This document shows, piece after piece, positions 1-3,021 of a stretch of 64,000 nt of DNA. The stretch lies in assembly GCA_017859395.1 (NCBI GenBank), contig JAFMNE010000004.1, forward strand, positions 1-64,000, given 5' to 3'. Source of the DNA: Ilumatobacteraceae bacterium. Lineage in GTDB: Bacteria; Actinomycetota; Acidimicrobiia; Acidimicrobiales; Ilumatobacteraceae. The notes beneath the pieces were generated by a model that worked only from the letters and a program-made list of their open reading frames with translations, was not told the DNA's origin and made no database searches. A program made the translations under genes and the position numbers. Numbering within the stretch: position 1 is the stretch's first letter; each line of letters begins with the position of its first letter.

Positions 1-2
1 GT

Positions 3-87
3 GTCGGAGGGGGGACTTGAACCCCCACGCCCATTAGTAGGGCACTAGCACCTCAAGCTAGCGCGTCTGCCATTCCGCCACTCCGAC
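3..87 (-). tRNA. tRNA-Leu (anticodon GAG)
   Basis: Read on the minus strand this folds as a class-II cloverleaf: acceptor GTCGGAG pairs with CTCCGAC, the anticodon stem CTAGC/GCTAG encloses loop TTGAGGT (anticodon GAG), and the T arm is GGGGG-TTCAAGT-CCCCC. The variable arm is long (about 17 nt, with a CCC/GGG stem), as expected for leucine. The 3' CCA is not encoded. It decodes CUC/CUU codons. Confidence 0.95.
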
Positions 88-112: not shown

Positions 113-355
113 TCAGGCACGCACCATCAGGAAACTGAGGGCGAGAACCGACAGGATCCACATGAGCGCAAACACGAAAGTGATGCGGTTCAGGTTGCGC
201 TCTGCTGCGGTCGAGCCCAGCGCAGCACCACCGCCACCGCCGAACATGTCCGACAGGCCACCGCCCCGGCCCGAGTGCATGAGCACTCCGCCGATGACTC
301 CAGCCATCGCCACGATGTTGATGATCACCATGATGTACATGAGCAGGTCGCGCAC
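113..355 (-). CDS. secG: SecG, preprotein translocase subunit
   Basis: An 80-residue membrane protein with two hydrophobic segments (about residues 4-25 and 57-78) separated by a Gly-rich cytoplasmic loop containing HSGRGGGLSDMFGG, the hallmark of the SecG family. SecG associates with SecYE and assists SecA-driven export. The size is normal for actinobacterial SecG. It is last on the minus strand of the gap-pgk-tpiA series, as in many Actinobacteria, but here a lipoprotein gene separates it from tpiA. The start ATG is the only good candidate. Identification rests on the SGRGGGLS loop and the two-TM topology. Confidence 0.93.
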   Translation of the reverse strand: MRDLLMYIMVIINIVAMAGVIGGVLMHSGRGGGLSDMFGGGGGAALGSTAAERNLNRITFVFALMWILSVLALSFLMVRA

Positions 356-378: not shown

Positions 379-2229
379 TCAGCGCTCCAGCATCGTGACA
401 TATGGGGCGCGCCGCAACAGGGGGCCCGGCACAATCCGACGATCGGCGTCCAATTCCCACAGCCCGGGCACGACCAAGGCACCAACGCCCTGGCGATACC
501 ACCCAATGGACCCACACGACAGCACAGGGTTCACACACGCTGGCCAGGTCTCCACACCGATCACCAACTGCCCATCACCATCACGATCTTCGAGTTCGGC
601 GATATCTAACAGCCGCAGGGCACTTGTTGAGCGCATGCGCCGCAGGACTGACTCGGGACCCACTTTGTCGGGTCGCCACGCCAACGCCGAGGGCAGCCGC
701 ACCAAGGGCAGCACATGACGCCGCGCGATCGTGCGTTCGAACACGTCGGACATGAAGCCGGCCTGGTCCCCCGGGTCAAACGTGCTGGTGGCGCGGTCAA
801 GCAACACATCGGCCTCCACATCGCAAAAACCCGTGACGTTGCGCCCCGAACGCGACGTATCAACCGACGGCACCTCGTCACAGGAGAACCGGCGTTCCGC
901 AGCCCCAACATCGGGAGGGTCGGCTGAGGCGAAGATCACCATGTCGTAGGCCAGTTGGGCGAGTTCGTCGGCGAATACGCATCCGCCACCGCATTCCTCC
1001 ACGCGGATACGAAATCCGCGCTCGGCCATCATCGGCACAACAGCATCCACCAGTTCGACCTGGCGCGCGTGCACCGCATCGATCAACCACACGATCTCAT
1101 GTGGCTCACCACTCGGATCTTGCCAAAATCCATCGGCGTCTTGGGTCCATCCAGCTGCCGTGAGATCGAGGGCCGCACCACCGGGGTCGTACCCGCCGGT
1201 GAACTCCTCACCCACGCACCAGTCCTCCACCAGCGTCGGCCCGCACTCCCACGCAACGATGCCCGGACGGATCGGCTCGTACACCTCGGTAATGATGCGG
1301 CCACGATCGAACGACCGCCAGAACGCATCACGGAATATGTCGTCGGCAAAGGTCTGCGATGCCGCCGGATGGGCGCCGGGTTGCAGATACAACGCTTCAA
1401 CCCGACCACCACTTTGCAACTCATAACTCAGATTCGGATCGTCAAGGCGTTCCCCGACACCAACAGCCAGATCGGGAGCAATGATGTCGACCTCGCCAGA
1501 ACGCAGTAGGTCAACTTCCAACGTCACATCGTTCAACGGCACAACGACCACCCGATCGAAGCCCAACTCGACCTCGACGCCATCACGTTCAACCGGTTCC
1601 AGAATCATCTGCAGCGCGTTCCACACCTCGGCTCGCAACACACCGGCCGATGTGGGTAACTCATCATCGAAGGCCGCGGCCAAATCGGTGCAGTCCTCGT
1701 GTACCGACGCCTGCAGAATGCGATCGAAGAGCATGCGGTAGCCCGATTCCGCCCGATCGAAGAACACTTCCACGACCCCGTCGATTCGTCCCTGGCGCAC
1801 CTCAATGACCGACCGGTACAGCTCAGCTTCGGCCGAGCCCGGCGTGGACTGCAACGCGGCCACAGTGCACGCCACATCATCTGCGCTCAGCGGCGTTCCA
1901 TCCGACCACAGCGCATCAGGGGTGAACTGGAACGACAACTGCATGACGGCCTCATCCGGCGGTGCAACCGGTGGCGGCAACGTGGCGGTCGTCGTTGGAA
2001 CGGGCGTCGACGACGGAGACAACTCCGGCGACGTTGACGACGGCCCGGATGTCACCGGGGCAACAGGTGCAGCCGATGTCGACACTGCCGAATCTGGCGA
2101 TGCGTCATCATCACCACTCGAGCACGCACCAATGAAGGTCACAGCAACAATTAGCCACCCGAATCGGCGACACCGTCGGGGTTGTGGGGCGCCAGCATCC
2201 ATTGCAACGACTGACCGTACCAGTCGCAC
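379..2229 (-). CDS. Solute-binding lipoprotein of the peptide (SBP_bac_5) family, apparently circularly permuted
   Basis: A predicted extracellular lipoprotein of 616 residues. A basic n-region (RRCRR) and hydrophobic stretch lead to a lipobox FIGAC with Cys36, followed by a Ser/Thr/Pro-rich linker (37-92). The body matches peptide/oligopeptide-binding proteins: WSDGTPLSADD at about 108-118, then the second-lobe region to about 530. The segment normally found at the N-terminus (start of lobe I, GVETWPACVNP through PGLWELDADRRIVPGPLL) instead sits at about 555-612, at the C-terminus. This looks like a circular permutation. No permease or ATPase genes are adjacent, so the partner transporter and ligand are unknown. 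The GTG at 2229 is taken as start; an ATG at 2202 would still leave a complete signal peptide. Confidence 0.8.
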   Translation of the reverse strand: MRLVRSVVAMDAGAPQPRRCRRFGWLIVAVTFIGACSSGDDDASPDSAVSTSAAPVAPVTSGPSSTSPELSPSSTPVPTTTATLPPPVAPPDEAVMQLSFQFTPDALWSDGTPLSADDVACTVAALQSTPGSAEAELYRSVIEVRQGRIDGVVEVFFDRAESGYRMLFDRILQASVHEDCTDLAAAFDDELPTSAGVLRAEVWNALQMILEPVERDGVEVELGFDRVVVVPLNDVTLEVDLLRSGEVDIIAPDLAVGVGERLDDPNLSYELQSGGRVEALYLQPGAHPAASQTFADDIFRDAFWRSFDRGRIITEVYEPIRPGIVAWECGPTLVEDWCVGEEFTGGYDPGGAALDLTAAGWTQDADGFWQDPSGEPHEIVWLIDAVHARQVELVDAVVPMMAERGFRIRVEECGGGCVFADELAQLAYDMVIFASADPPDVGAAERRFSCDEVPSVDTSRSGRNVTGFCDVEADVLLDRATSTFDPGDQAGFMSDVFERTIARRHVLPLVRLPSALAWRPDKVGPESVLRRMRSTSALRLLDIAELEDRDGDGQLVIGVETWPACVNPVLSCGSIGWYRQGVGALVVPGLWELDADRRIVPGPLLRRAPYVTMLER

Positions 2230-2244
2230 CAGGTACTGAACCGG

Positions 2245-3021
2245 TCAGGACACGGCGTGTTGCACGATGCGCGCAAACTCGTCGGCATCAAGGCTGGCGC
2301 CACCGACGAGTGCGCCATCAATGTCGTCTTGGGCCATCAACTCAGCAATGTTGCCGGACTTCACCGACCCGCCGTACTGGATCCGCACACCCGTCGCCGC
2401 GTCGGCCCCGAACGACGCCGCGACGGCAGCGCGAATCGAGGCGCACACCACTTGGGCATCGTCGGGGGTGGCGGTGCGACCAGTGCCGATCGCCCACACC
2501 GGTTCGTAGGCGATCACCAGTTCAGCAACGGCGGCCTTTGAAACTCCACGCAGGCCATTCACCACTTGCGCCAACACCACGTCCTCGGTCTCGCCGGCTT
2601 CTCGTTGCTCAAGGCTTTCACCGACACAAAGGATCGGTGTCATCTTGTGCCGCAGCACAGCCGACACTTTGGCATTCACCATCTCATCGGTTTCACCGAA
2701 GATCGACCGGCGCTCACTATGGCCACAGATCACCATCTTCACGTCCAACTTCGCGAGGAAAACCGGCGACACCTCTCCGGTGAATGCACCCGTGTCTTCG
2801 GCATGGCAGTGCTGCGCACCCAGCAGGAACGGCATCCGGTCAGCTTCGATTGAGGTCTGCACCGTGCGGATATCGGTGAAGGGCGGATGGATGCTCACAT
2901 CCACCTGCTCCATCACATCGGGTGGCAGCAGCCAGTTCAGTTTCTGAATCGTGCGCAACGACTCGAAATGGTCGTGATGCATCTTCCAATTGCCACTGAT
3001 CAGCGGTGTGTGTTCAGACAT
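2245..3021 (-). CDS. tpiA: Triosephosphate isomerase
   Basis: Interconverts dihydroxyacetone phosphate and glyceraldehyde 3-phosphate in glycolysis/gluconeogenesis; cytoplasmic TIM barrel. At 258 residues it has family length. Visible motifs are GNWKM near the N-terminus (substrate Lys), CGHSERR (electrophilic His), AYEPVWAIGTG (catalytic Glu, start of the flexible loop) and the phosphate-binding YGGSV. Its start overlaps the 3' end of pgk by 8 nt, so translation is probably coupled within gap-pgk-tpiA. Confidence 0.98.
   Translation of the reverse strand: MSEHTPLISGNWKMHHDHFESLRTIQKLNWLLPPDVMEQVDVSIHPPFTDIRTVQTSIEADRMPFLLGAQHCHAEDTGAFTGEVSPVFLAKLDVKMVICGHSERRSIFGETDEMVNAKVSAVLRHKMTPILCVGESLEQREAGETEDVVLAQVVNGLRGVSKAAVAELVIAYEPVWAIGTGRTATPDDAQVVCASIRAAVAASFGADAATGVRIQYGGSVKSGNIAELMAQDDIDGALVGGASLDADEFARIVQHAVS

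Follow-up and report, generated by a model that had tools for sequence, protein, structure and literature searches.

A circularly permuted family-5 binding lipoprotein of Ilumatobacteraceae, paired with an importer in most carriers and orphaned in one genus

Documented cases of natural circular permutation among ABC binding proteins are rare. One of them, Tp0684 (TpMglB-2) of Treponema pallidum, is a tethered ABC-importer binding lipoprotein in which N-lobe strands that normally lie at the N-terminus are found at the C-terminus; it has been retained with its transporter genes and was proposed to represent a 'Type Ic / Cluster Bc' (PMC4990184). TpMglB-2, which belongs to a different fold cluster from the protein described here, was the one other naturally permuted binding-protein family that we found in the open-licence literature, where we found no report of a permutation in family 5 or in OppA. 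Two family-5-related cases are relevant to a binding protein that has no adjoining transporter. MppA delivers ligand to OppBCDF. LpqW is a family-5-fold lipoprotein of mycobacteria with a role in the synthesis of envelope glycolipids, and it is not known to be part of an importer.

Here we describe a gene at positions 379..2229 (minus strand) of a 64,000-nucleotide stretch of Ilumatobacteraceae DNA, referred to as the window. Its 616-aa product (GTG start) is very probably an OppA/DppA-class lipid-anchored binding protein whose N-terminus was moved once, and which is paired with an importer in most carriers and orphaned in the window's genus. The permutation, its spread, the single branch on which it falls, its operon context and the losses were established by computation.

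The protein begins with a signal peptide and lipobox (2122..2229; TFIGAC) ending in the lipidation cysteine, Cys36, which is invariant across 43 aligned permuted homologues. The first-pass annotation had the core starting directly after the lipobox, which proved incorrect: a low-complexity Ser/Thr/Pro/Ala linker of ~57 residues (residues 37-93; 1951..2121), mostly of pLDDT < 60 in the AF2 model, lies between Cys36 and the core. No normal N-terminal lobe was found within residues 37-92, as the only match to a profile of that segment is at the C-terminus. The core (residues 94-545; 595..1950) corresponds to the canonical protein from after the first hairpin to the C-terminus. It is followed by the sequence DRDGDG (residues 548-553; 571..588), which joins the old C-terminus to the old N-terminus and carries an EF-hand-like D-x-[DN]-G-[DN] motif present in 63 of 65 distinct junction sequences. 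The relocated N-terminal segment, assigned by segment homology, comes last (residues 554-612, QLVIGVETWPACVNP...VPGPLLRRAPYVT; 394..570); in canonical relatives it precedes the core. All of these features are on the minus strand.

The Pfam model PF00496 matched residues 100-434, from model position 21 onward only, with a score of 50.6 bits against a gathering cutoff of 32.4, which places the protein in SBP_bac_5; a transporter-paired homologue (L012) scored 181 bits. This model misses most of the N-terminal segment, and membership of the core is unaffected by the changed order. The window protein therefore resembles OppA/DppA/NikA/EppA-type proteins in its core sequence, its fold matches and the Opp/Dpp-type operon found in other genera, but differs from them in its permuted segment order, with the N-terminal segment after the core, and in its new DxDGDG junction. 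It also differs from TpMglB-2, which has a sugar-binding Type I / cluster B fold, three moved strands and weak similarity in the moved part. The window protein gave only SBP_bac_5 and family-5 fold matches (cluster C), the homology of its moved part is clear, and it has canonical relatives at the same locus.

The circular permutation suggested by the first-pass annotation was borne out by segment homology, a rotation scan, conserved order, phylogeny and structure prediction. The region that normally comes first had been placed at residues ~555-612, after the usual end of the protein, and both Smith-Waterman alignment and the segment profile located it there (554-612). Aligned with the N-terminal 150 residues of the mature forms of three canonical proteins, this segment gave Smith-Waterman scores of 91-121 (shuffle mean ~25; shuffle z 15.6-22.8), and the pairwise comparisons as a whole gave z 15.6-28.2; the last 150 residues of these proteins gave 22-26, that is, no signal. 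A profile of residues 552-612 matched before the core in the canonical proteins of L132, L164, L165 and L049 (E 1e-13 to 1e-18) and after the core in 112 permuted ORFs, a count in which loci from different tools overlap and which does not equal 112 independent genomes. Around 12 further canonical genes across the order, several of them classified, have model positions ~540-601 directly upstream of ~80-516. Among the ORFs matched by the segment profile, none with two copies of the segment, the expected form of a rearrangement intermediate, was seen.

In the rotation scan (step 4, nine comparisons, with canonical-canonical pairs as controls), the best alignment was obtained in 9 of 9 comparisons with the cut at mature residue ~493-517, which is the junction. 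The rotated order scored 7-17% above the native order (for example 392 to 458, 706 to 814 and 795 to 891), and the controls gained nothing. Rotation thus restores collinearity with canonical homologues, as expected of a natural circularly permuted ABC binding protein. Against solved structures, a rotated-junction profile in canonical order aligned across the join to residues 69-192 of EppA (6wm6) and 121-229 of Mtb OppA, whereas the alignment of the native-order profile stopped at position ~473 of 565. Pfam could not tell the rotated from the native sequence, as the start of PF00496 lies near the new N-terminus.

AF2 modelling of the window protein gave a pLDDT of 87.4 and a pTM of 0.84, with the C-terminal blocks mostly at 79-94, and modelling of a transporter-paired homologue (L091) gave 89.4 and 0.87; the input alignment consisted of permuted homologues only. 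The permuted chain is thus predicted to fold as one confident unit. In the model, the last strand (mature residues 575-578) and the first core strand (61-67) probably correspond to a pair that is joined by a short loop in the canonical protein. The best fold matches of the models were the family-5 proteins EppA (6wm6), LpqW (2grv), Mtb OppA (8j5u) and NikZ (4oeu); Foldseek is order-dependent and its output was without aligned ranges, so these matches support the fold class and not the permutation itself.

These data also bear on whether the C-terminal segment might be an added, independent domain, the N-terminal segment having simply been lost. The authors of the TpMglB-2 study considered a similar possibility for their protein, for which sequence identity was poor (PMC4990184). 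For the window protein this explanation is highly improbable. The moved segment is strongly homologous to canonical N-termini (z 16-28) and to nothing else that was found, just 2-5 residues separate its end from the stop codon in the 115 ORFs counted, and AF2 places it with high confidence. Since every relative found for the C-terminal piece is an N-terminal segment from this family, the homologues do not bear out a second independent domain.

The same permuted order was found in at least 77 of 222 sampled Ilumatobacteraceae genomes, in 11 genera, counting matches of nearly full length that extended to model position 602-603. Outside the family, it was found in one genome each of two other families (f26 and f46), and no permuted match was obtained at E <= 1e-40 in the other families sampled across the phylum. 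In the scan of genome contigs, a single-protein query gave no match and an alignment query did. Nearly all carriers are metagenome-assembled genomes, which might point to an assembly or frameshift artefact; however, the same order and frame recur throughout these genomes and genera with conserved flanks, and dN/dS is far below 1, leaving an artefact a negligible probability.

In trees built from the core only, a single branch separates permuted from canonical proteins (support 100/99 and 100/100), with one change on the tree. Because of its generality, the canonical order is probably the ancestral state. A single event would then have transferred the N-terminal ~60 residues to a position after the C-terminus, in an ancestor shared by Ilumatobacteraceae and a small number of relatives within Acidimicrobiales. 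The chain would have been opened in a loop that connects early strands in the canonical protein and closed through the short DxDGDG loop between the former termini. It should therefore still adopt the two-lobed fold typical of these proteins, with the membrane anchor presumably entering at another site. We infer that the native fold is retained in vivo, together with ligand binding and docking. Permutation by duplication is a described mechanism (PMC3320104). In one genome, two canonical SBP genes of a related group lie head to tail (G443:C14, L201:1861-5601); such a pair could seed a permutation, and permutation by duplication would therefore fit the rearrangement described here.

In the window, the SBP gene is separated by 15 nt from its upstream neighbour tpiA (2245..3021, minus strand), which has the same orientation, and by 23 nt from its downstream neighbour secG (113..355, minus strand). 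A tRNA-Leu (gag) gene lies downstream of secG (window 1-87, minus strand). Genera other than the window's carry the permuted gene in the arrangement rapZ-gap-pgk-tpiA-[SBP-permB-permC-abcD-abcF]-secG. Its partner genes there match models for Opp/Dpp/Nik-type permeases and ATPases, with scores under the equivalog cutoffs. At L051, L052, L166-L169 and L205, this site is taken by canonical SBPs that have the same set of partners. Adjoining permease and ATPase genes, which would assign an SBP to an Opp/Dpp-type importer, are thus present in other genera and absent beside the window gene. The best explanation is that the permuted protein serves the adjoining Opp/Dpp-type importer in most carriers.

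All four transporter genes (two permease, two ATPase) are absent from the window's genus, where tpiA, the SBP gene and secG are closely spaced. The first-pass annotation had noted both that the gene lacks transport partners and that it interrupts a usual tpiA-secG neighbourhood. Each observation holds for this genus but not as an original state: in relatives the gene belongs to an SBP-permease-permease-ATPase-ATPase operon at this position, and it does not interrupt an ancestral tpiA-secG pair. Both are derived states of the window's genus, in which the loss of these four transporter genes left an orphan binding protein behind.

Several related loci were also observed. In other families (L049, L050, L132 and L206) the SBP operon follows secG (tpiA-secG-SBP) rather than lying between tpiA and secG. 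One genome of the window's genus (G013:C193, L041) has the orphan plus a second, transporter-paired permuted copy elsewhere, reflecting acquisition or bin contamination. A gene of another genome (G026:C29, L048:8822-11200) encodes an Hsp70-like fragment (PF00012, 21.9 bits) and an apparent transmembrane segment followed by a permuted SBP domain; this fusion gene is without transporter genes, and its product is possibly a membrane sensor. A protein kinase domain and an SBP_bac_5 domain are combined in one 1171-aa protein at G143:C46 (L177:7442-10957).

A motif in the moved segment, C-[AN]-N-[SA]-[ST]-W, occurs both in the closer canonical relatives and, with few exceptions, in the paired permuted proteins; it was lost in 9 of 9 distinct orphans. 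This pattern of retention and loss suggests that binding was retained through the permutation and was altered following loss of the transporter. The amino-acid divergence of the orphans is 2.1 times that of tpiA, compared with 0.66-1.17 in the paired groups. In close orphan pairs dN/dS is ~0.06, dS being saturated in distant pairs, and the fast-diverging orphan is thus under purifying selection. Three draft genomes of the window's genus (G005, G014 and G015) no longer have the SBP gene and retain a short remnant of its 3' end before secG. Up to the stop codon, the remnant reads LVRRAPFVTELH/LVRRARFVTELH in G014 and G015, compared with LVRQAPFVTELR in intact copies, and the shorter remnant of G005 reads GPFVTKLR. 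The orphan is thus maintained in the genomes that keep it but is dispensable, given its loss from these three.

The orphan may now serve as a reserve binding protein of a different Opp/Dpp-type importer of the cell, or be a binding protein of the envelope that works independently of transport, the latter being slightly favoured. Delivery of ligand to another Opp/Dpp importer of the cell, by analogy with MppA, is plausible but falls somewhat short of an even chance. The window genome has a complete canonical importer (C47, L179) and most members of the genus have at least one other family-5 system; however, G003 and G006 carry the orphan but lack the C47-type permease (76-78% identity) and have another permease instead (39-40%), and a search among the genomes that keep the orphan found no partner importer common to all. 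A transport-independent role in the envelope, in the manner of LpqW, comes close to an even chance. It would be consistent with the loss of the cognate transporter, with the length of the stem leading to the orphans (1.5-1.6 changes per site), and with change at 77 of 139 near-invariant positions. LpqW shares the family-5 fold and lipid anchor and is among the top fold matches, but this similarity is that of the whole family; LpqW has the canonical order, and a shared function is not supported.

Order-dependent profiles such as those of Pfam and NCBIfam show only the core of these proteins and conceal such permutations. That permutation in binding proteins was selected by tethering seems rather unlikely. 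Were it so, the family-5 protein and TpMglB-2 would have independently moved N-lobe strands from the tethered to the free end, altering where the anchor enters the fold and leaving the binding site and the importer unchanged. The permuted proteins have canonical relatives, partly at the same chromosomal position, they fall on a strongly supported single branch, and both paired and orphan descendants exist. The effect of the permutation on folding, anchoring and transport is therefore testable by comparison.
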